Positions 4,208 through 11,895 of a stretch of 23,672 nucleotides of DNA are shown here, one piece after another. Each line of letters opens with the position of its first letter. Positions within the stretch are counted from its first letter, which is position 1. The stretch covers positions 786 through 24,457 of IMG/VR virus record IMGVR_UViG_3300030109_004508. The stretch is one strand, 5' to 3'. Both the position numbers and the translations under genes were made by a program. Below the pieces are notes generated by a model, which saw nothing but the letters and a program-made list of their open reading frames with translations, did not search any database and was not told the origin of the DNA. The DNA comes from a virus.

Positions 4208-4912
4208 TTATGTTTCATTTATTCGTTTTTCTGCTAATTCAAAATATTTTTTGTCTTTCTCTATTCCTATAAAATTTCTGTTCAAGTTCTTACAAGCAAC
4301 ACCTGTACTGCCTGAACCCATTGTAAAGTCTAAAACAGTATCGTTTTCTAGTGTGTAGGTTTTGATTAAGTATTCTAGTAAAGGTACTGGCTTTTGTGTT
4401 GGGTGTACTTTATTTTTATCTCTATTAAATTCTATTAATGTTAATGGATAACGAACTCCATTATTTTCAGTAACAATATTTAATTTACTGTCTTTATTAT
4501 AAATTGATGTTCCTCCACCTTTTTTAATTGTGTAAGGTTTCCCAACTCTCATTTGTGGATTATACTTATGAGGTTTTTTACAAAATACCGAAATAGTTTC
4601 TATGTTTTTTAAAGGATATTTTTTAGAATTTAAAAATCCAGTTCCTTGTTTTTTATTCCAATACCAATCGTACTTAAACCATTCAATATTTGATATTCTT
4701 AAGAAACTACTAAAAGGTTCACTACCAAATAATGCAATACAACCATTGTCTTTAATAACTTTTTTAAGTTCTTTCCACATTAAATCAAATGGAATGATGC
4801 TATCCCACTTACATTGTGTTGTTCCATAAGGCGGATCAGTTAAAATTAAATCTATTGAATTATCCCGTAACTTTGGCATTTCTGCCAAACAATCACCTAG
4901 TATTAATTTCAT
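4208..4912 (-). CDS. DNA adenine-type methyltransferase (beta class)
   Basis: A 234-residue amino-methyltransferase that transfers a methyl group from S-adenosylmethionine, most likely to N6 of adenine. Catalytic motif IV 'TDPPYG' is at residues 25-30 and the SAM-binding motif I 'DFTMGSGSTG' at 195-204; this order (catalytic first, SAM site at the C-terminus) defines the beta class. 'HPTQKPVPLLEYLI' before motif I is the conserved motif X region. DPPY rather than SPPY favours adenine over N4-cytosine. No restriction enzyme is adjacent, so it is an orphan phage enzyme, plausibly protecting phage DNA from host restriction. The target sequence cannot be read from the protein. The start overlaps the end of the upstream XF1762-like gene by 20 bases. 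Confidence 0.9.
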   Translation of the reverse strand: MKLILGDCLAEMPKLRDNSIDLILTDPPYGTTQCKWDSIIPFDLMWKELKKVIKDNGCIALFGSEPFSSFLRISNIEWFKYDWYWNKKQGTGFLNSKKYPLKNIETISVFCKKPHKYNPQMRVGKPYTIKKGGGTSIYNKDSKLNIVTENNGVRYPLTLIEFNRDKNKVHPTQKPVPLLEYLIKTYTLENDTVLDFTMGSGSTGVACKNLNRNFIGIEKDKKYFELAEKRINET

Positions 4913-5396
4913 TCTTTTTATATTTTGATATAGGCATAATTTCTGGTTTAGGGTTTAAATCTTTCCACCATTTTATTTTTTTTTCGTATGTGCAATCAAC
5001 ATTCCTATCTCTAGTATTCCAACCAGAGCCATTATGAGATGACTCTTTATACTCCCACCCAACAGCTTTTAAACTAGAACCTGATTCTTTTTGCAAAGTA
5101 GTAGTTTGTATTTTTGCATATCCTAGAATTTTAGCTGTTTTTGCAGCAGCACCTAAAAGAATACTACAAGCATTAAAAGTACCATTAGTTGCTAATCTGG
5201 TTATCTCTAATACAAATTTCTGATCAGTTAATCTTGCTATTGGCCTGGAACAAATAGCAACACCTACTAGTTCCCCATCATTGTTAATACATCCTAAAGA
5301 AAACCTATGACCAACAGCAGGTTTATGGTGTCTATGCCATTTTTGTATTGCACCATTAGCCTCTGATAAATCTAGTGGAATGATAGTAAGTGGGAT
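4893..5396 (-). CDS. XF1762-family phage protein with no canonical start codon
   Basis: A ~167-residue reading frame resembling the XF1762 family, a widespread phage protein of unknown role with an acetyltransferase-like look. Diagnostic parts are 'PLDLSEAN...WHRHHKP.VGHRFSLG', 'LVGVAICSRPIAR', 'LEITRLATNGTFNACS.LLGAAAK.A' and 'TLQKESGSSLKAVGW'. The frame is fully open from an upstream TGA at 5418-5420, but the region where the protein should begin contains no ATG, GTG or TTG. The first family residues fall exactly at ATC (5394-5396), within TAATC, where a coupled TAATG would be expected; GAGAGGG lies six bases upstream. Either ATC is used, a former ATG has mutated, or it is made by -1 frameshifting from the upstream gene at GGGTTTG. 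Coordinates assume the ATC. The first ATG/GTG/TTG far downstream would remove most of the conserved domain. Confidence 0.7.
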   Translation of the reverse strand: MPLTIIPLDLSEANGAIQKWHRHHKPAVGHRFSLGCINNDGELVGVAICSRPIARLTDQKFVLEITRLATNGTFNACSILLGAAAKTAKILGYAKIQTTTLQKESGSSLKAVGWEYKESSHNGSGWNTRDRNVDCTYEKKIKWWKDLNPKPEIMPISKYKKNEINTR

Positions 5397-5596
5397 TACA
5401 AACCCTCTCTGATTTGTTCAGTACGACATCGTTTTGGTGTTGTTTTGGAATAATCACGGCTTTTAGGACGTAATTGATACAATGGGCAACCTTTGGAAGT
5501 ACAACCCTCAATTTGCTCTAAACGAGTACCTTTTGAGTATTTATCGTAAATACACTCAGTACACATTTTATTTATGGCTAAACGTAAGGATGCCAT
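5396..5596 (-). CDS. Cys-rich small phage protein (zinc-ribbon-like)
   Basis: A 66-residue protein starting 'MASLRLAINKMCTECIYD' with cysteines at 12, 15, 32, 37 and 57 and the stretch 'GCTSKGCPLYQLRP'. This matches a common family of small phage and prophage proteins (two Cys pairs, then C-P/A-L-x-x-x-R-P) that probably bind zinc; function unknown, and it often sits beside XF1762-family genes. The ATG at 5594-5596 is preceded by GGAGGG at 6-7 bases, so I prefer it to the TTG 27 bases further upstream. It ends GGT-TTG-TAA, and the last six coding bases are part of the slippery heptamer discussed for the next gene. Confidence 0.72.
   Translation of the reverse strand: MASLRLAINKMCTECIYDKYSKGTRLEQIEGCTSKGCPLYQLRPKSRDYSKTTPKRCRTEQIREGL
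5399..5405 (-). promoter_or_regulatory. Candidate -1 frameshift slippery heptamer G-GGT-TTG
   Basis: Minus strand reads G GGT TTG TAA in the frame of the Cys-rich gene. This fits X XXY YYZ with the stop codon as the next codon. A -1 slip gives GGG TTT GTA ATC, which is exactly the frame of the XF1762-like gene that lacks a start codon. The AGAGAGG just upstream could act as a stimulatory Shine-Dalgarno. I see no strong hairpin immediately downstream, which weakens the case. Confidence 0.4.
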
Positions 5597-5970
5597 TTTC
5601 AACCCTCCGGTGAGTGGAGACAACTATATATATAACGTGGCGCGAAAATTTCGGGGTATGGGGTAGTTGAAAAAAAATATTTTTCCAATTTGAATTAATA
5701 AAATCAACAACTTAGATCATTATAGAGGATATAATACTCCATCAATACCAACAATATCAGCAGCTTACATTATATTGAGCCAGATTAATGACCGCGATCA
5801 TATAGAATTGCCGATCATTCTGTATATTTTGGAACGAGTGAGTGCTTAAGGACTCTATTGTTCTAACCCTATCTATATGAACCATAAAGCCATTAATAAG
5901 GTTAATAAGGCTTTTTGTTCTTATTTGGAAGTTTTAATGTTTTCTTTGTTTTTTTATTGGTCATAATTCA
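5597..5970. other. Non-coding block between divergent operons
   Basis: No convincing gene on either strand. The part nearest the leftward genes has TATATATATA (about 5623-5633), a plausible -10 for the Cys-rich gene, and the palindrome CGAAAATTTCG at about 5642-5652. A perfect TATAAT lies on the plus strand at 5730-5735 without a good -35. CGATCAT occurs twice at about 5794 and 5812. The block ends with a rho-independent terminator (5886-5916) that has no gene in front of it, so a small plus-strand RNA between about 5740 and 5916 is possible. Confidence 0.4.
5886..5916 (+). terminator. Rho-independent terminator with no upstream gene
   Basis: Stem AAAGCC (5886-5891) with GGCTTT (5909-5914), continued by ATTAA/TTAAT around a TAAGG loop with a two-base AA bulge, then TTTTT. 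The U-tract is on the plus strand. No plus-strand CDS precedes it in this window, so it may end a non-coding RNA or stop read-through into the DnaA-box region. Confidence 0.6.
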
Positions 5971-5973
5971 TTC

Positions 5974-6015
5974 TTATCCACAGAGTTATCCACATCCAGG
6001 AGGTAGTTATCCACA
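5974..6015 (+). other. Cluster of three perfect DnaA boxes, candidate origin
   Basis: TTATCCACA occurs three times in the same orientation, at 5974-5982, 5986-5994 and 6007-6015. Start-to-start spacing is 12 and 21 bases, about one and two helical turns. Each is a perfect match to the strong DnaA box TTATNCACA. The following ~120 bases (6016-6138) are very AT-rich, suitable as a duplex-unwinding element. Host DnaA binding is therefore expected; whether it starts replication or controls the rightward operon is inference. Confidence 0.7.
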
Positions 6016-6036
6016 GGTTATTAAAAATATAAATAG

Positions 6037-6052
6037 TGTGATGTAGTTCACA
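6037..6052. promoter_or_regulatory. CRP/FNR-superfamily type operator TGTGA-N6-TCACA
   Basis: TGTGA (6037-6041), six bases, TCACA (6048-6052): a perfect dyad equal to the CRP consensus core. It lies between the DnaA boxes and the first rightward gene. A -10-like TATAAC at 6114-6119 follows, without a good -35, which would put the dyad near -81, a position used by class I CRP activation. That the host makes a CRP-like protein is inference. Confidence 0.5.
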
Positions 6053-6138
6053 TTTTAATAATATTGTTATATAAAAGGCTTGTATTAATAATTAGTATTC
6101 AAAGTGTATTTTGTATAACTAAATAGAGGTCAAATAAT

Positions 6139-6282
6139 ATGAAAAAATCAAAGGTAATAATTAAGAAAAAAGATAGACCTGTATCTTTTACAGTTAAGAA
6201 TGTAGACACCGGCAAAATGGTTAAAGTCAGTACTGTTGGCGGTCTGTTATCAATAAATAATAGGAGTAATAAAAATGGGTAA
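6139..6282 (+). CDS. Small basic protein, first gene of the rightward operon
   Basis: A 47-residue protein beginning MKKSKVIIKKKDRPVSFTVK, strongly basic at the N-terminus, with a beta-like 'SFTVKNVDTGKMVKVSTVGG' middle. Not recognised. The ATG at 6139 has AGAGG about 9 bases upstream, and the gene overlaps the next start by 8 bases (ATGGGTAA), so the two are coupled. As the first gene after the DnaA-box/CRP-dyad region it would be among the earliest rightward products. Confidence 0.6.
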   Translation: MKKSKVIIKKKDRPVSFTVKNVDTGKMVKVSTVGGLLSINNRSNKNG

Positions 6283-6538
6283 ACATGATTTTTGCAGAGG
6301 TTTATTAGCACAAATTAGACCATATGTAGAACAACACGTTCCTATTGCACTAAGAAAAACAATGTGGACGTATATACATAGATTGGGTTATCAATCGCAA
6401 GGAGAGTTTCACTTAGGCGAAGGTAGTAATGTAGCTTTCTATAATCTTAATGATGCTTGTTGTCACTACCACGCAAGGTATCAAGGATGGGCAAAATATC
6501 TTGAAAGTATTGGTGTAGAATTTGATGATGATGTTTAG
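6275..6538 (+). CDS. Hypothetical phage protein, His/Cys-containing
   Basis: An 87-residue protein, not recognised. It has a helical first half (RGLLAQIRPYVEQHVPIALRKTMWTYIHRLGY) and a 'DACCHYHARYQGWAKYL' segment with clustered Cys/His that could bind metal, and an acidic tail. It starts at ATG 6275 with AGGAG upstream and overlaps the preceding gene. Its stop codon (6536-6538) lies inside the 5' strand of stem II of the hammerhead ribozyme that follows, so self-cleavage would trim this gene's mRNA shortly after the stop. Confidence 0.6.
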   Translation: MGKHDFCRGLLAQIRPYVEQHVPIALRKTMWTYIHRLGYQSQGEFHLGEGSNVAFYNLNDACCHYHARYQGWAKYLESIGVEFDDDV

Positions 6539-6613
6539 TCGAAACGTCTGGCTCATTTATTTGAGTCAGACTTCAATAGGAGTTGACCTCCCTATTCTGA
6601 TGAGACAGGTCAT
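6531..6613 (+). ncRNA. Type II hammerhead self-cleaving ribozyme
   Basis: The order matches a type II (stem II-open) hammerhead. Stem II 5' strand GTC (6538-6540) is followed by the core GAAA (6541-6544). Stem III is a 10-bp hairpin (6546-6555 with 6562-6571, loop TTTATT, one G-U pair). Then U16.1 (6573, pairing A6544) and H17 (C6574) mark the cleavage site. Stem I follows (6575-6580 with 6591-6596, then a bulged C and 2 more pairs, loop TTGAC). The core CTGATGA (6597-6603) comes next, then GAC (6604-6606) closing stem II. Outer pairs with mismatches extend stem II to 6531/6613. One deviation: the 15.2-16.2 position is a C-U mismatch (6545/6572) instead of C-G. Hammerheads of this type are known in phage and marine metagenomic DNA. 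Predicted cut after 6574 would separate the 6275-6538 mRNA from the 6646 gene. Confidence 0.8.
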
Positions 6614-6645
6614 ATATCAATAAATAATACAAGAGGTAAACAACT

Positions 6646-7098
6646 ATGAAATTAACAAAAGAACAAAATAATGAAATAGAAAGCATTAAAGAACCGCTTG
6701 ATGAAAAACAAAAGGCTGTTTTTGATACCGCTTTCTATTTCAAATTTTTAACAAAAGGTAGATCGTTTTCTGACTCTATACACTCAGCAAAATGTGCTGT
6801 ATTTGATATTCATCCTAGTGCTGAAGAAAGCAATAGAGATCGAGAAAAAGCCTTTAAAGTTGATTGGAGTAAAGAAGATATTAGAAGTTACAGCGATCAA
6901 GAATTAAGTCTTTTAGTATTTAATACAGAATGGCTCTATAAAGTAGCATTAAATAATGATACAGATAAATTTCTAACAATTATCAATAATCTCTATACTT
7001 ATAGAGAAGAACAATTAGTTGATTTACTTGAAACTAGGGCTGAAGAATTAAACGAATTAATTATCGAAGATATATACTCAAATAGTGGAAAAGATTAA
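6646..7098 (+). CDS. Hypothetical phage protein, acidic and helical
   Basis: A 150-residue acidic protein, predicted largely alpha-helical, with no motif I can name. The C-terminal ~40 residues (YREEQLVDLLETRAEELNELIIEDI) look like a coiled or helical segment. The ATG has AAGAGG about 9 bases upstream (ACAAGAGGTAAACAACT). It is the first gene after the hammerhead ribozyme, so its mRNA would start with a 5'-hydroxyl end about 70 bases before the start codon if the ribozyme cuts. Confidence 0.6.
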   Translation: MKLTKEQNNEIESIKEPLDEKQKAVFDTAFYFKFLTKGRSFSDSIHSAKCAVFDIHPSAEESNRDREKAFKVDWSKEDIRSYSDQELSLLVFNTEWLYKVALNNDTDKFLTIINNLYTYREEQLVDLLETRAEELNELIIEDIYSNSGKD

Positions 7099-7099
7099 A

Positions 7100-7153
7100 A
7101 TTAGTAAAATATAACCGATCTATTTGATCGGTTATGCTGTACTAATTTAGTAC
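7100..7153 (+). repeat. Stacked hairpins in the 7099-7173 intergenic gap
   Basis: A perfect 10-bp stem ATAACCGATC/GATCGGTTAT (7111-7120, 7126-7135, loop TATTT) is followed by a 7-bp stem TGTACTA/TAGTACA (about 7138-7154). The 5' segment ATTAGTA (7100-7106) can pair instead with TACTAAT (7140-7146), so the second hairpin has an alternative partner. No U-run follows, so it is not an ordinary terminator. It lies in the 5' leader of the DUF3427 gene and may control mRNA stability or translation. Confidence 0.55.
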
Positions 7154-7173
7154 AATAAAGAGGAGATATAACT

Positions 7174-7599
7174 ATGACATTACAAAAAGGCAAAAAATAC
7201 ATGAGGGCAAACATCCCGCCTCTATTTGATCTTGAATTTAATCAAGGCTTATGGAATAGCGGCCATATATGCCCTAAGGCAATAAACGATCAAATATTAC
7301 TAGTTACTATGAATAAAAAGAATATTTATAGATATCTAGATAATTCTGATTATCATGATAAGGCTAATGGCAAGACCTTCATCTGGTCAAGTCAAGCCTC
7401 AACTACTGTTGAAAGTAAAAAAGGTCAAGCGGTTATTAATCATGTTAAGAATAATTCAAGTATTCATTTATTTGTTAGGAATTCTAAACTTGATCAATCT
7501 GGTAAGGCTGCGCCATTTGAATATTTTGGCAAATTACAATACATGAGCCACAATGGTGAATGCCCTATTAGTTTCAAATTCAAATATTTGGAGGCTTGA
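7174..7599 (+). CDS. Stand-alone DUF3427-domain protein
   Basis: A 141-residue protein that resembles the DUF3427 domain usually found at the C-terminus of large superfamily-2 helicase/nuclease proteins. Matching blocks are the start 'Y.RANIPPLFDLEFNQGLWNSG', 'ILLVTMNKK', 'FIWSSQASTTVESKKGQAVINH', 'IHLFVRNSK' and 'PFEYFGKLQY', in the expected order and covering nearly the whole domain. Here it stands alone. DUF3427 is thought to be a PUA/SRA-like beta-barrel fold, a type often used to read modified DNA bases; that use here is inference. It ends 2 bases before the ArdC gene, so they are co-translated. SD GAGGAG and the ATAACT-ATG leader precede it. Confidence 0.65.
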   Translation: MTLQKGKKYMRANIPPLFDLEFNQGLWNSGHICPKAINDQILLVTMNKKNIYRYLDNSDYHDKANGKTFIWSSQASTTVESKKGQAVINHVKNNSSIHLFVRNSKLDQSGKAAPFEYFGKLQYMSHNGECPISFKFKYLEA

Positions 7600-7601
7600 T
7601 C

Positions 7602-8480
7602 ATGAAAGAAAAAAGCAACAAAGTAGAAGAACTAAAAACTAATGTTACTAATATGCTTATTGATAATATCAATGAATGCCTTGCTAGTGATTGGAAAAAA
7701 TCTTGGATCAATGTAGGTAAACCTCCATACGATCCAGTCTCCGATCATTACTATCAAGGCTTCAACATGCTTTCATTGTCATTATTAACCGCTTTCAATG
7801 GCTATTCTTGCGCTGAATATGCGACCTTTAATCAATGGAAAAAGATCGGCTTTGTTCCAAGTAAAGGATCAAAAGGCTTGAGTGCTTTACAGCCTTTGAT
7901 GAGAAAAGGCACAGATAAGGAGTCTGGCGAAGATATTACTTTTATAGGCGGTTTTCGAGCCTATGCCGTTTTCAATGCTGATCAAGTTGTAGATATTGAC
8001 AATGGTGATCCTTATAAACCTGAAAATTTAGACGTTCAATTGAATGAGAATGATCGCATTAAAAAGGCCGAAAAATTCTTTAATAATTGCAAGGTCAAAA
8101 TGGTAGAAAATGGCGATGTTGCATGTTATATCCCTAGTAAGGATAAGATCATGATGCCAACATTAGAACAATTTGATAATGGTAAATCTTATTATGCAAC
8201 ATTGTTCCATGAACTAACCCATGCAAGTGGTCATAAAGATAGATTAAATCGCGATCTTAATAATGGCTTTAATGCGAAAGGCTATGCCTATGAAGAATTG
8301 ATCGCAGAGATTGGATCGGCTTTTATAATGTCTCACTTAGGATTAGACCATAAACCAAGAAAGGATCATGCTCCATACTTAAAAGGATGGCTGAAAGGCT
8401 TGGAAAATGATATTAATTTCATTTTTAAGGCATCGGCTCAATCTGGTAAGGCATTAGACTTTTATAATAAAATGCAATAG
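7602..8480 (+). CDS. ardC: ArdC-like antirestriction protein
   Basis: A 292-residue protein with the ArdC layout: an N-terminal single-strand DNA binding domain (about 5-125; 'W.KSW...G.P..P.S...Y.GFN.L.L' and 'YATFNQWKKIGFVPSKGSKG') and a C-terminal zincin metalloprotease-like domain with 'HELTHASGH' (H203, E204, H207) and the downstream 'YEELIAEIGSAFI' (E235 as likely third zinc ligand). ArdC proteins of plasmids such as pSa protect incoming DNA against restriction; length matches (~297). I choose the ATG at 7602, which has TTGGAGG (7588-7594) 7 bases upstream, over an in-frame TTG at 7596. The stop is 18 bases before a strong terminator, so this gene ends the first rightward operon. Confidence 0.9.
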   Translation: MKEKSNKVEELKTNVTNMLIDNINECLASDWKKSWINVGKPPYDPVSDHYYQGFNMLSLSLLTAFNGYSCAEYATFNQWKKIGFVPSKGSKGLSALQPLMRKGTDKESGEDITFIGGFRAYAVFNADQVVDIDNGDPYKPENLDVQLNENDRIKKAEKFFNNCKVKMVENGDVACYIPSKDKIMMPTLEQFDNGKSYYATLFHELTHASGHKDRLNRDLNNGFNAKGYAYEELIAEIGSAFIMSHLGLDHKPRKDHAPYLKGWLKGLENDINFIFKASAQSGKALDFYNKMQ

Positions 8481-8498
8481 ATAGACCTCCGCCTCATT

Positions 8499-8528
8499 AA
8501 AGCACCAGAAAATGGTGCTTTTTTTTTG
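8499..8528 (+). terminator. Rho-independent terminator after ardC
   Basis: Perfect stem AGCACCA (8501-8507)/TGGTGCT (8513-8519), loop GAAAA, flanked by A pairing with T, followed by nine T residues. Clear intrinsic terminator on the plus strand. Confidence 0.92.
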
Positions 8529-8820
8529 TCTGTAATATATCCAATATTTAGCTAATTGTTAAAAATCTCTAAAAAGCGGTCTAAAATGCTCTATATTAAA
8601 TTTTGATATTCAAATGAATATTACTATTAAGTAAGCTGTAAAAACTCCATATGGATAAATTAGGTGCATTGTTTTCATATTTTCATGTTTTCTTATGTAT
8701 AACAGAATATAAAAATATGCTTTTTTGGTGCTTTTTCTTTTTGTTTAATAAAATTTATTGTTTTATTAGATAAAATAAAATATTATTGAAATCCCTGAAA
8801 CTATTGGAGAACTATATCAA
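8529..8820 (+). promoter_or_regulatory. AT-rich leader with promoter and operator-like dyad
   Basis: No gene. A plus-strand promoter candidate is TTGATA (8603-8608), 16 bases, TATTAA (8625-8630). The dyad ATATTC-AAAT-GAATAT (8606-8621) fills its spacer and so would be an ideal repressor site. The next gene encodes an Arc-like RHH protein, so autoregulation is a reasonable guess. A second T-rich GGTGCTTTTTCTTTTT (about 8727-8742) repeats the 3' arm and T-tract of the terminator at 8501 but lacks the 5' arm. The remainder is simple A/T sequence. Confidence 0.4.
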
Positions 8821-9006
8821 ATGTCGAGCAAAATTAAGAAGAAAATTGGTAGACCACAAAAGTATAACCAGGAAACTAAATTTAGGTGTTTCAGAATACC
8901 GAACAACCTGGATAAAAAAATTACACTCATGGCCTCAGATAAAAAAATATCAATGAATGAAGTTATTGTTAATGCACTTGATAATTTTTTCTACGGAGAA
9001 AAATAA
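8821..9006 (+). CDS. Ribbon-helix-helix (Arc/CopG-type) DNA-binding protein
   Basis: A 61-residue basic protein. After a Lys-rich arm (KIKKKIGRPQKYNQ) comes 'FRCFRIPNNLDKKITLMASDKKISMNEVIVNALDNF': a beta strand, then two helices with the conserved S-M-N-E-V/I, the layout of Arc/MetJ/CopG repressors. Such proteins dimerise and insert the strand pair in the major groove. ATG follows GGAGAACTATATCAA. It opens the second rightward transcription unit, downstream of a promoter whose spacer contains a palindrome. Residues 'KYNQET' are encoded by the same 20 bases as in the integrase gene. Confidence 0.75.
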   Translation: MSSKIKKKIGRPQKYNQETKFRCFRIPNNLDKKITLMASDKKISMNEVIVNALDNFFYGEK

Positions 9007-9008
9007 CT

Positions 9009-9341
9009 ATGAAACATATATGCGGTTGCGATACTGACAGCAAATGGGAACAAATGATCGAACAATCTAAGAATGAAATAGGCAAGGATTTACTTGCTAA
9101 TTTTTATGACTCAAGTCATGGCAATGATCTTTGTCCTAGTATGGCTAATGACTATTTAGGCATACAAATTTTTATTGATTATCCTTTTGAAGAATCGGAA
9201 TGGGATAACATTAAAGATTATAGTAAATACACCATGCACTTTTTCGATAAAGAGCATAATTTTAAAGATAACGTAGTTCATTTTGACAAAATAGATGAAG
9301 TTAAATTAGCTATTGAAGTAATAAGAGGATCAAAACAATGA
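9009..9341 (+). CDS. Hypothetical phage protein
   Basis: A 110-residue acidic protein I do not recognise, starting MKHICGCDTDSKWEQMIEQ. Two early Cys (5, 7) and aromatic-rich 'IFIDYPFEESEWDNIKDYSKYTMHFF' are the only visible features. ATG 9009 is 2 bases after the RHH gene stop, with GGAG in the end of that gene. Its last codons overlap the next ATG (ATGA). Confidence 0.55.
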   Translation: MKHICGCDTDSKWEQMIEQSKNEIGKDLLANFYDSSHGNDLCPSMANDYLGIQIFIDYPFEESEWDNIKDYSKYTMHFFDKEHNFKDNVVHFDKIDEVKLAIEVIRGSKQ

Positions 9342-9439
9342 AAGCACTAATAGAGTTTACAGTTGAAGTTCCTATGATTTATTTCATTCCGATGCTTTGT
9401 TGTACGATAGCATTGTTGATGGAAAAATTTGATCTATAA
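9338..9439 (+). CDS. 33-residue single-span membrane protein
   Basis: A very short ORF beginning with ATGA overlap on the upstream gene, preceded by AAGAGGA. Residues about 8-27 (TVEVPMIYFIPMLCCTIALL) form one hydrophobic span, followed by a short charged tail. The ATGA overlap, SD and membrane span support it; function unknown. Confidence 0.5.
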   Translation: MKALIEFTVEVPMIYFIPMLCCTIALLMEKFDL

Positions 9440-9458
9440 ATAACCAGGAGAAATAACT

Positions 9459-9851
9459 ATGAAACAATTAAACCTTACTTATTTAATTACACCTTGTCAT
9501 GGATATTTAAAGGTAACCAAACAAACATTTTTTGAAGATATGAAATTCAATGGTGGTGAATTTTCAAAATTTTCTTGGCAAAGCCGTGATGGTGATATGT
9601 TATATCTGGAAGAGGACTGCGATATGCCAAAATTCATAGGACTAGCAAAAGGAAAAGGTTATGACATTAACATTACAGAAAGATCAATTGGTTGGGATAT
9701 TGGTCATACTGGCATTGAATTATCTGGTCAATTTTCAGACCGGAGTATACATAGTAAATCTTCCGTATTTTCATTAAAGGCAAGAGACGTTCACTCTCAG
9801 CGTGATGAAATAGAGGCAGAACGAATATGGAAAGCTATCAAGGCAGATTAA
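9459..9851 (+). CDS. Hypothetical phage protein
   Basis: A 130-residue protein, not recognised. It is predicted mixed alpha/beta with many aromatic and Gly residues (HGYLKV, 'FNGGEFSKFSWQSRDGDMLYLEED', 'GWDIGHTGIELSGQF'). The C-terminus 'WKAIKAD' is encoded by 21 bases identical to part of the MGYTNYW gene at 11013, suggesting the end of this gene was patched from that family by recombination. AGGAGAAATAACT-ATG gives the start. Confidence 0.55.
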   Translation: MKQLNLTYLITPCHGYLKVTKQTFFEDMKFNGGEFSKFSWQSRDGDMLYLEEDCDMPKFIGLAKGKGYDINITERSIGWDIGHTGIELSGQFSDRSIHSKSSVFSLKARDVHSQRDEIEAERIWKAIKAD

Positions 9852-9868
9852 TTATAGGAGATAAAACT

Positions 9869-9994
9869 ATGAGTAAATTAAATAAAGGTAAATTAATTGG
9901 CACATGTGGCGTGGATTCTGGTCAAATTTTGATCATTGTAATACCTAATTGTCTCAAAAGAGACATGATCACATGGGGAGAGAATCACACATGA
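9869..9994 (+). CDS. Short VDSGQ-motif protein, probably truncated
   Basis: A 41-residue ORF with AGGAGATAAAACT-ATG upstream and an ATGA overlap with the next gene. 'GTCGVDSGQILIIVIPNCL' resembles the start of a widespread small-protein group with 'G..GVDSGQL.I.DPCYL'. Those proteins are usually longer, so this looks like a shortened copy. Function unknown. Confidence 0.45.
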   Translation: MSKLNKGKLIGTCGVDSGQILIIVIPNCLKRDMITWGENHT

Positions 9995-10200
9995 GAAAGA
10001 AAATAGAAATTGAAAAAACAGTACCAGGAAAAATATCCGGTAATGTTCATGTGTTAGATGCCGATACTTTTTGCAATAACAATAAAGATTGTTTACCAGA
10101 AACTTGCATAACAAGTATTAAAAATTTAAAGAAGGGTAAAACTGTCAAAATAGAATTACCAAACTATCCAAAATTAACTATCAAATTATACGGAGAATAA
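9991..10200 (+). CDS. Hypothetical small phage protein
   Basis: A 69-residue basic protein, not recognised; 'GKISGNVHVLDADTFCNNNKDCLPETC' holds three Cys. The true start is the ATG at 9991 with GGGGAG 9 bases before it, overlapping the previous stop (ATGA), rather than an in-frame TTG at 9949. The C-terminus 'KLTIKLYGE' is read through the GGAG that serves as SD of the next gene. Confidence 0.5.
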   Translation: MRKKIEIEKTVPGKISGNVHVLDADTFCNNNKDCLPETCITSIKNLKKGKTVKIELPNYPKLTIKLYGE

Positions 10201-10202
10201 CT

Positions 10203-10625
10203 ATGGGGTACACAAATTATTGGTATCAAGAAAGACCATTCACTGATACTGAATGGGCAGTAATCAAGTCAGAGTATTGTTATCTTGTAGGACAACATGA
10301 ACTGCAAAACGAAATGTCTAAACTTCTTTTTGTTGATGAAGGAGGAGATATAGATACAGAAATAATCTTAAATGGCATTGGTCAAGATAGTCATGAAACA
10401 TTCTGTCTATATAAAGATGGTAATTTGGAAAGAATATCTTTATATGAAGATGATGATATACACTACAACTTCTGCAAAACTGCTGAAAAAGCATATGACA
10501 TTATTGTTTGGCATTTGCTTATGACAGCCAGAGTTGTTGCTCCAGATGCAATCTCAATAAAACGAGATAGAGTTGAAAGCCAGGAGTTTTTCTGTAACCC
10601 AGATAGGAGAAATAACTATGAGTAA
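10203..10625 (+). CDS. MGYTNYW-family phage/bacterial protein, copy 1
   Basis: A 140-residue protein of the family that begins M-G-Y-T-H/N-Y-W, found in phages and bacteria, function unknown. Conserved blocks: N-terminal MGYTNYW, 'W..IKSEY.YL', 'I.LNGIGQDSHE.F' (about 58-72) and 'YNFCKTAEKAYDIIVWHLL' (about 91-109). It is paralogous to the gene at 11013. GGAGAATAACT precedes the ATG. The stop overlaps the next start by 8 bases. Confidence 0.6.
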   Translation: MGYTNYWYQERPFTDTEWAVIKSEYCYLVGQHELQNEMSKLLFVDEGGDIDTEIILNGIGQDSHETFCLYKDGNLERISLYEDDDIHYNFCKTAEKAYDIIVWHLLMTARVVAPDAISIKRDRVESQEFFCNPDRRNNYE

Positions 10626-11010
10626 TAATCCAATCGAAAAAATAGCTGAAAACTGGTTGACCGCCACAGGGAACAGTTTAGAAGATACAGTTGGACACAC
10701 TTTGTTGTCACTTGGTCAACTGATAATTACACAAATGCAACCTGATGGTGCGTACTACATTGAAATAAAGGACAAGAAAGGAATTACAAAAATATTTACT
10801 TATGAACCTGACTATGATGAATTGCGAGAATCTATTGATAAAGGTTTTGCTGAGATTCAAACAACATCTGCGGAAGGCACTTGTCAATTAGTATTAATGT
10901 TTCAATGTTTAGAGTTCGTTATTTTGGCAGATAATACTGTAATTACTAGGTACGAAGATAATGTTTCTGGCACATCAGAGGCTTTTTTTCCATACGAGAC
11001 AGGAGAATAA
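10618..11010 (+). CDS. Hypothetical phage protein between the two MGYTNYW copies
   Basis: A 130-residue protein starting MSNNPIEKIAENWLTATGNSLEDT. Not recognised; predicted mixed alpha/beta, acidic. I choose ATG 10618 because AGGAGAAATAACT lies directly before it; an upstream in-frame ATG at 10573 has no SD and would run through the previous gene. Together with 10203 and 11013 it forms the arrangement paralog - unrelated - paralog. Confidence 0.55.
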   Translation: MSNNPIEKIAENWLTATGNSLEDTVGHTLLSLGQLIITQMQPDGAYYIEIKDKKGITKIFTYEPDYDELRESIDKGFAEIQTTSAEGTCQLVLMFQCLEFVILADNTVITRYEDNVSGTSEAFFPYETGE

Positions 11011-11012
11011 TT

Positions 11013-11387
11013 ATGGGGTACACAAATTATTGGCTACAAAAAAAACCTTTCAGCGATCCTCAATGGAAAGCTATCAAGGCAGAATATTTATATTTGATAG
11101 AACAGAATAAAGTTACTAAACTTTTTGTTGATCAAACTGAAGATATTGACAATGACATAGTGTTAAATGGTGTTAGTCAATATGAACCTTTCTATTTGAG
11201 TAAGAAAATAAAAGAACCACGCTATGAAGGTGATAATGTAGCCTTTAATTTTTGCAAAACTGCTTACTTGCCTTATGATCTTATTGTGTGGCACTTGCTT
11301 GTATTTGCAAAAGCGGTAGCACCAGGAAGTATCACAATTTCGAGAGATCGAAACGAACCAGACTTACACAACTTACTAGGAGAATAA
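11013..11387 (+). CDS. MGYTNYW-family phage/bacterial protein, copy 2
   Basis: A 124-residue paralog of the 10203 product. Shared blocks are MGYTNYW, 'W.AIKAEYLYL', 'IVLNGVSQ.EPF', 'FNFCKTA..PYDLIVWHLL' and 'A.AVAP.SI.I.RDR'. It is 16 residues shorter, mostly in the region after the first block. DNA identity around the start, including the SD leader and first 22 coding bases, is almost complete between copies while the rest has diverged, as expected for an old duplication with constrained ends or a later patch. The SD leader is GGAGAATAATT. Confidence 0.6.
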   Translation: MGYTNYWLQKKPFSDPQWKAIKAEYLYLIEQNKVTKLFVDQTEDIDNDIVLNGVSQYEPFYLSKKIKEPRYEGDNVAFNFCKTAYLPYDLIVWHLLVFAKAVAPGSITISRDRNEPDLHNLLGE

Positions 11388-11389
11388 CT

Positions 11390-11644
11390 ATGTCATTATA
11401 TTTTAGAAATCTCTCAATTACTGAGAAAAGAGTAGAAGAAGATTATTACTCAGAGAAATTAAAAAAGAGTATTAAGTATAAAAAGCCAAAAGTAACTACT
11501 AAGGTACTTTATGAAAATAAATGGGTTGGGAATATCGGTGATCTATACGACAAAATCAAATTCATTACCGAAGAACATGGCTCACACTTGTACGGCAAAG
11601 GTCATACTTTGACTATTAAAGTAGAACCAGAAATAGATTATTAG
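11390..11644 (+). CDS. Hypothetical basic phage protein, end of rightward operon
   Basis: An 84-residue Lys/Tyr-rich protein, not recognised. The first 45 residues are highly charged (KRVEEDYYSEKLKKSIKYKKPK). ATG 11390 has AGGAGAATAACT; a longer in-frame version from 11288 would overlap the previous gene fully and is rejected. It meets the leftward gene at 11641 tail to tail with a 4-base overlap and no intrinsic terminator between. Confidence 0.55.
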   Translation: MSLYFRNLSITEKRVEEDYYSEKLKKSIKYKKPKVTTKVLYENKWVGNIGDLYDKIKFITEEHGSHLYGKGHTLTIKVEPEIDY

Positions 11645-11895
11645 AAACTCTTTCTGATTATCTGAAACTTAGTAACTGTACTTTTGATCACCTCTGACAA
11701 GCCACCCATGCCCTTGTCGGAGGTGATAACGTTCATAAGGAAGTACCTGGTGTCGTCCTCTTTTACTAACCACCCGATAGCCTTGCACTCGACAGGCGGT
11801 TCATTTAATTCCTCTTTCTCAAGCCACCCTCCATCGCCTTGATGATCTAGAAAAAAAATCAATGCTAGGGGGAATTTTTGGTACTTATAGGGCAT
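11641..11895 (-). CDS. Conserved small phage protein (W-L-E-E / GW family)
   Basis: An 84-residue protein that resembles a common group of small phage proteins with 'W.D....GWLE.EEL....' followed by 'AIGWLVKEDD...F.M.....' and a C-terminal 'I.K..I..I..L'; role unknown. Here: 'GGWLEKEELNEPPVECKAIGWLVKEDDTRYFLMNVIT'. The coding sequence contains a 15-bp inverted repeat (11687-11727). Start ATG 11893-11895 overlaps the end of the upstream membrane-protein gene. Confidence 0.5.
   Translation of the reverse strand: MPYKYQKFPLALIFFLDHQGDGGWLEKEELNEPPVECKAIGWLVKEDDTRYFLMNVITSDKGMGGLSEVIKSTVTKFQIIRKSF
11687..11727. repeat. 15-bp inverted repeat at the convergent junction
   Basis: ATCACCTCTGACAAG (11687-11701) pairs with CTTGTCGGAGGTGAT (11713-11727); one position is G-T, all others Watson-Crick, loop 11 bases. 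It lies inside the 11641-11895 gene, 43 bases after the end of the rightward operon. Neither side has a T-tract, so it is not a classic terminator, but it could block or stabilise the 3' end of the rightward transcript. Confidence 0.6.

Follow-up and report, generated by a model that had tools for sequence, protein, structure and literature searches.

The stretch analysed here, in the following called the window, comprises 23,672 nucleotides (positions 786 to 24,457) of IMG/VR virus record IMGVR_UViG_3300030109_004508. This record is a 24.5-kb virus contig carrying integrase and head-tail connector genes, and its terminase is nearest to TerL of the Pelagibacter phage EXVC032P (58%). The following features were located on the plus strand.

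6139..6282, plus strand: open reading frame of 47 codons, first of the operon, overlapping the start of the following gene (read from the sequence)
6275..6538, plus strand: open reading frame of 87 amino acids, immediately 5' of the ribozyme, no known family
6538..6612, plus strand: predicted type II hammerhead ribozyme, from stem II through the end of the pseudoknot (match to covariance model R1, see below, at 6536-6614)
6646..7098, plus strand: open reading frame of 150 amino acids, 3' of the ribozyme, beginning 39 nt past stem II, no known family
7174..7599, plus strand: open reading frame with a DUF3427 domain, member of the ribozyme operon
7596..8480, plus strand: ArdC-like antirestriction gene (ArdcN and MPTase-PolyVal domains; phrog_7245)
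8499..8521, plus strand: hairpin with a T run, resembling an intrinsic terminator, probable operon end

Together these features seem to constitute a short operon, which would run from about 6139 through the 87-aa frame, the ribozyme, the 150-aa frame, the DUF3427 gene and the ArdC-like gene to the putative terminator at 8499-8521. The label "early", given to this operon in the first-pass annotation, is plausible.

Several further features were noticed in the window. Three perfect DnaA boxes (TTATCCACA at 5974, 5986 and 6007) lie within 5974-6015, no other perfect ones being present in the window; together with the A/T-rich stretch behind them, they mark a candidate replication origin just 5' of the ribozyme operon. 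A 33-nt direct repeat (6241-6273 and 6608-6640, 76% identical, spacing 367 nt) contains the exact 15-nt core TATCAATAAATAATA. Its copies bracket the 6275 gene and the ribozyme, and the second one starts within the pseudoknot tail. This repeat may be the mark of a duplication, or of the insertion of a gene-plus-ribozyme unit. Just past the stop codon of the 150-aa gene there is a 10-bp hairpin (7111-7135) with a T run on the minus strand only. The open reading frames at 10203-10625 and 11013-11387 are related (MGYTNYW...) and apparently represent a duplicated gene; the first of them, which was scanned, belongs to no known Pfam family.

Architecture of the predicted ribozyme

The site at 6538-6612 on the plus strand reads GTC GAAA C (10-bp hairpin) U UC / AATAGG AGT TGACCT C CCTATT CTGATGA GAC AGGTCA. 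Its parts are listed below.

6536-6538, plus strand: TAG stop codon of the 6275 gene, the G being the first base of stem II
6538..6540, plus strand: 5' strand of stem II (GTC), pairing with GAC at 6604-6606; stem II has 3 bp and is open
6541..6544, plus strand: core G12-A13-A14 and A15.1 (GAAA), from the sequence
6545..6572, plus strand: C15.2 (6545) x U16.2 (6572) mismatch, enclosing the stem III hairpin, from the sequence
6546-6555/6562-6571, plus strand: stem III, 10 bp with one G-U
6573..6574, plus strand: U16.1 (6573) and H17 (C6574); cleavage predicted at 6574/6575 by homology to hammerheads
6575..6596, plus strand: stem I hairpin of 6 bp (6575-6580/6591-6596), capped by loop I
6584..6589, plus strand: pseudoknot strand in loop I (TGACCT), perfect complement of 6607-6612; relatives have the same layout
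6597..6603, plus strand: core CTGATGA (C3 to A9), from the sequence
6604..6606, plus strand: 3' strand of stem II (GAC), from the sequence
6607..6612, plus strand: pseudoknot strand in the tail (AGGTCA), directly 3' of stem II

All elements named in the first-pass annotation (GTC-GAAA, stem III, cleavage site, stem I, CTGATGA and GAC) can be read from the sequence in the order given there. The conserved hammerhead core is present, with CTGATGA at 6597-6603, GAAA with A15.1 at 6541-6544, U6573 and C6574. H17 is a C also in 117 of 133 relatives (among the matches listed). Stems I and III are closed by loops and stem II is open, which is the type II topology; since stem II is open and all hammerhead parts are present, the motif is of type II. 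Two details of the earlier reading had to be changed. The upstream stop codon had been placed in stem II, and this holds for the G of TAG (6538) but not for the remaining bases of the stop. Stem I had been described as 6+2 bp; the 6 bp stand, whereas the extra 2 bp fit better into a 6-bp pseudoknot.

This pseudoknot, overlooked in the first reading, connects loop I with the 3' tail (6584-6589/6607-6612), and all six of its pairs are Watson-Crick. The type II consensus includes a loop I/3'-tail pseudoknot, which most members have (PMC3088659). As an independent feature, the predicted pseudoknot supports the type II assignment more strongly than any other single observation. When the site was shuffled with the core words fixed, equally good stems arose in 3 of 60,000 shuffles and the complete pseudoknot in 236 of 60,000.

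Family membership of the motif

A search with the Rfam type II covariance model had been proposed as a check, and it turned out negative, with a score below threshold at the site. With RF02276 the site went unreported, even when E-values up to 10 were allowed and a stretch of 191 bases was searched, and Rfam at its gathering threshold and at permissive thresholds gave only chance matches there. The same model also misses the motifs of the IMG/VR loci L048, L030, L095 and L093, and its gathering threshold of 37 bits was set by curators for searching and does not define the structure.

IMG/VR was scanned with the core words GTCGAAA ... CTGATGAGAC, which gave at least 120 stretches with at least 141 distinct motifs. 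Under a fixed rule, stems III and I were found in 133 of the 141 distinct core-word matches listed, compared to 0.74% of shuffled inserts; a pseudoknot of at least 4 bp was present in addition in 93 of these 141 (0.25% of shuffles). Since 133 of the 141 listed matches have the stems and only 0.7% of shuffles do, the type II hammerhead class, as predicted from sequence, is abundant in phage DNA. Rfam itself reported 13 type II hammerheads in 12 of the scanned loci, and some motifs pass the gathering score. The motif set is therefore real, and the Rfam model simply insensitive. The core word CTGANGA alone was not more frequent than expected by chance. A second hammerhead, with CTGAAGA in place of CTGATGA, was observed at L144:1086-1152, on a contig that also carries a motif with the C-U mismatch described below. 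It escaped the fixed-core pattern, and thus the census is a lower bound.

From an alignment of 80 related phage motifs (A2), with the window excluded, the covariance model R1 was made. R1 found one match only in the window (E up to 10), at 6536-6614, with 58.9 bits and an E-value of 1.4e-14, which is partly circular. The search for the relatives had used 17 core bases of the window, and only motifs with the stems and a pseudoknot of 4 bp or more were admitted to A2, so that both the E-value and the pair counts overstate the support. This circularity does not affect the shuffle test that was run on the window's own site. Across the 80 relatives in A2, stems I and III and the pseudoknot covary strongly, with 370 cells changed on both sides compared to 107 in shuffles; 89.6% of cells were paired, compared to 64.8% when shuffled and 30-39% when slid. 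All six pairs of stem I covary. Stem II is invariant in A2 because it was fixed by the search pattern.

The R1 score, the consensus pseudoknot and the intergenic, same-strand context bear out the earlier identification of a type II hammerhead in a phage operon. Its sequence, pairings, pseudoknot, covariance-model family membership, position and orientation are established. The predicted ribozyme is real and a typical representative of a class that is known and common.

Relatives of the locus

The only relative of both flanking genes found in IMG/VR is on a 48-kb contig, in which the ribozyme is unchanged and identical at the site; a divergent relative of this locus, in which covariation might show, did not turn up. 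No further ribozymes were found in the window or in this contig. The flanking genes had no match in named phages, either as DNA or as protein, and the ribozyme locus therefore has no annotated relative. Two contigs with about 95% identical terminase DNA (L137 and L143) depart from the window near position 4215, or match it only briefly past that point; neither has the ribozyme. Since close relatives are without the whole segment, the ribozyme segment is accessory. The window region 4216-11873 is replaced by different DNA in these two contigs and appears as a variable accessory region. No ribozyme was found in the cultured Pelagibacter phages EXVC032P, with the closest TerL (58%), and EXVC031P, with the closest ArdC.

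Predicted processing of the operon mRNA

We consider it likely that the type II hammerhead splits the mRNA of the accessory operon between co-directional genes, 5' of the ArdC-like gene. Cleavage, its speed, the chemistry of the ends and the effect on mRNA fate are inferred from sequence. Once transcribed, the motif would fold into a three-way core of stems II, III and I, in which the pseudoknot between loop I and the tail would hold stems I and II next to each other. Self-cleavage would then occur after C6574. The upstream mRNA would end 36 nt past the stop codon with the 10-bp stem III hairpin and a 2',3'-cyclic phosphate. The downstream mRNA, encoding the 150-aa, DUF3427 and ArdC-like genes, would start 71 nt ahead of the next start codon, with a 5'-OH and the hairpin of stem I. 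Hairpins at 3' ends hinder exonucleases, and RNase E prefers 5' monophosphates; both new ends would therefore be expected to slow decay. A likely use would be that the two parts of the polycistronic mRNA are translated and decay separately, with hairpins on both new ends. Perreault et al. (PMC3088659) had earlier suggested that polycistronic mRNAs of phages are cut.

Placement of the ribozymes at stop codons

The position of 134 motifs (the 133 among the matches listed and that of the window) relative to same-strand frames of at least 80 codons ending nearby was analysed. The six-frame gene calls were crude and placed many antisense open reading frames over the motifs, and stop-codon distances with an antisense control were therefore used instead. 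A same-strand reading frame ends near the 5' edge of the ribozyme in 100 of the 134 motifs listed, compared to 27, at scattered positions, in the antisense control. In 83 of those 100 motifs, the distance between stop codon and stem II is -1 to +5 nt, and in 27 of the 134 listed a TAG donates its G to stem II exactly as in the window. Downstream frames mostly start 15-40 nt past stem II. The idea that CTGATGA might provide the start codon of the downstream gene was discarded: an in-frame ATG occurs in about 30% of motifs, which is the chance expectation. In L039 and L041, consecutive motifs set apart single short genes. Seven type II hammerheads, all on one strand, were observed within 3 kb between short genes at L041:8400-11325, and this locus is a good test case for ribozyme punctuation.

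Antirestriction genes occur among the genes next to the motifs, ArdC-like in 3 of 67 upstream and ArdA-like in 3 of 67, and so do anti-repressors and DUF932/ATPase genes (small sample). No structural families were seen among the neighbour families listed (the first 25). Distal genes of the same contigs belonged to 112 PHROG families, portal and replication genes included, compared to about 30 for the neighbours (both samples small).

The placement at stop codons bears on a switch-like version of the preferred reading, the confidence in the two overlapping. A ribosome finishing the upstream gene would cover stem II and GAAA, so that cutting would occur only when this gene is poorly translated. 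Both the base shared by TAG and stem II and the 83 of 100 listed motifs with a stop within -1 to +5 nt point in this direction, and from the size of the ribosome, a terminating one would be expected to cover the 5' strand of stem II. However, phage genes are tightly packed and an abutting stop may just save space, and the downstream side needs room for a ribosome-binding site. We regard such a switch as unlikely.

A more general proposal would be a punctuation system for accessory operons in which antirestriction genes are frequent. Phage type II hammerheads would be placed by rule at the upstream stop codon, each generating both the 3' end of the message before it and the 5' end of the message after it, and the stop overlap would let termination gate cleavage. 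This proposal is tentative and on the doubtful side. The stop-codon rule could be a product of compact phage genomes and not of function. No paper stating such a rule was found in the literature covered, which includes only a minor part of the subscription literature.

The C-U mismatch and competing folds

The C15.2 x U16.2 mismatch had been noted before as unusual and as a possible cause of slow cleavage or mark of decay. It is indeed rare, being present in 2 of 133 motifs of the first set (among the matches listed), but at least three further motif groups (L048/L080, L030 and L144/L146) share it. In all other respects these motifs are canonical, and at least six stem III pairs follow the mismatch in each of them; the mismatch alone is therefore no sign of decay. 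Lying beside A15.1-U16.1, it may slow cleavage. The hammerhead fold, calculated without the pseudoknot, has -21.3 kcal/mol, compared to -29.4 kcal/mol for the best nested fold of 6525-6620, and stem II has a pairing probability of at most 9% in nested-fold predictions, which omit the pseudoknot. Because nested folding ignores the pseudoknot and tertiary contacts, this energy gap is a caution and not a refutation.

Mismatch and competing fold could together mean that the element, although descended from hammerheads, cuts too slowly or not at all, so that the operon mRNA stays whole. The mismatch adjoins the conserved A15.1-U16.1 pair, the nested fold has the lower energy as long as the pseudoknot is left out, and phage variants with slow or no cleavage have been reported (PMC3088659). 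Yet the core bases, stems and pseudoknot are all intact, which would not be expected of a decaying element, and the mismatch seems to be tolerated in canonical motifs of unrelated contigs. A slow or dead ribozyme is thus quite improbable. A chance arrangement of core words and hairpins with no ribozyme history, to which the lacking Rfam match at the site and the chance frequency of CTGANGA by itself might point, can practically be dismissed in view of the rarity of the stems and the full pseudoknot among the 60,000 shuffles, the stems in 133 of the 141 public matches listed and the sole R1 match in the window.

Two points matter beyond this locus. The Rfam model misses the motif of the window, so that the class is undercounted in current annotation. 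The position at stop codons in the 134 motifs listed and the ArdA/ArdC neighbours offer a concrete and testable clue to why these ribozymes are retained in phages, a question that dates back to 2011.

Comparison with known systems

Type II hammerheads of phages have been known since 2011. Published hammerheads of phages and prophages, some of them flanking ardA, cut in vitro and in E. coli (PMC3088659). The window motif agrees with the type II family RF02276 (PMC3088659) in the order of the stems, the core bases, the short open stem II and the closed stems I and III, as well as in the loop I/3'-tail pseudoknot and the intergenic site in a phage genome. It differs in being missed by Rfam, in its longer stem III (10 bp), in its A/T-rich stem I and in the C-U at 15.2/16.2.

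Phage theta ribozymes, which are HDV-like, resemble it in being phage-encoded and self-cleaving, as predicted for the window motif, and in the RNA-processing role proposed for them. They have another fold and catalytic core and are associated with tRNAs (PMC10879173), in contrast to the protein-coding operon of the window. The prophage hammerheads of Agrobacterium tumefaciens (PMC3088659), for which cleavage is known, likewise lie in a phage operon with an antirestriction gene nearby. There, ardA is accompanied by three ribozymes, whereas in the window there is a single ribozyme and the ArdC-like gene lies two genes further downstream.
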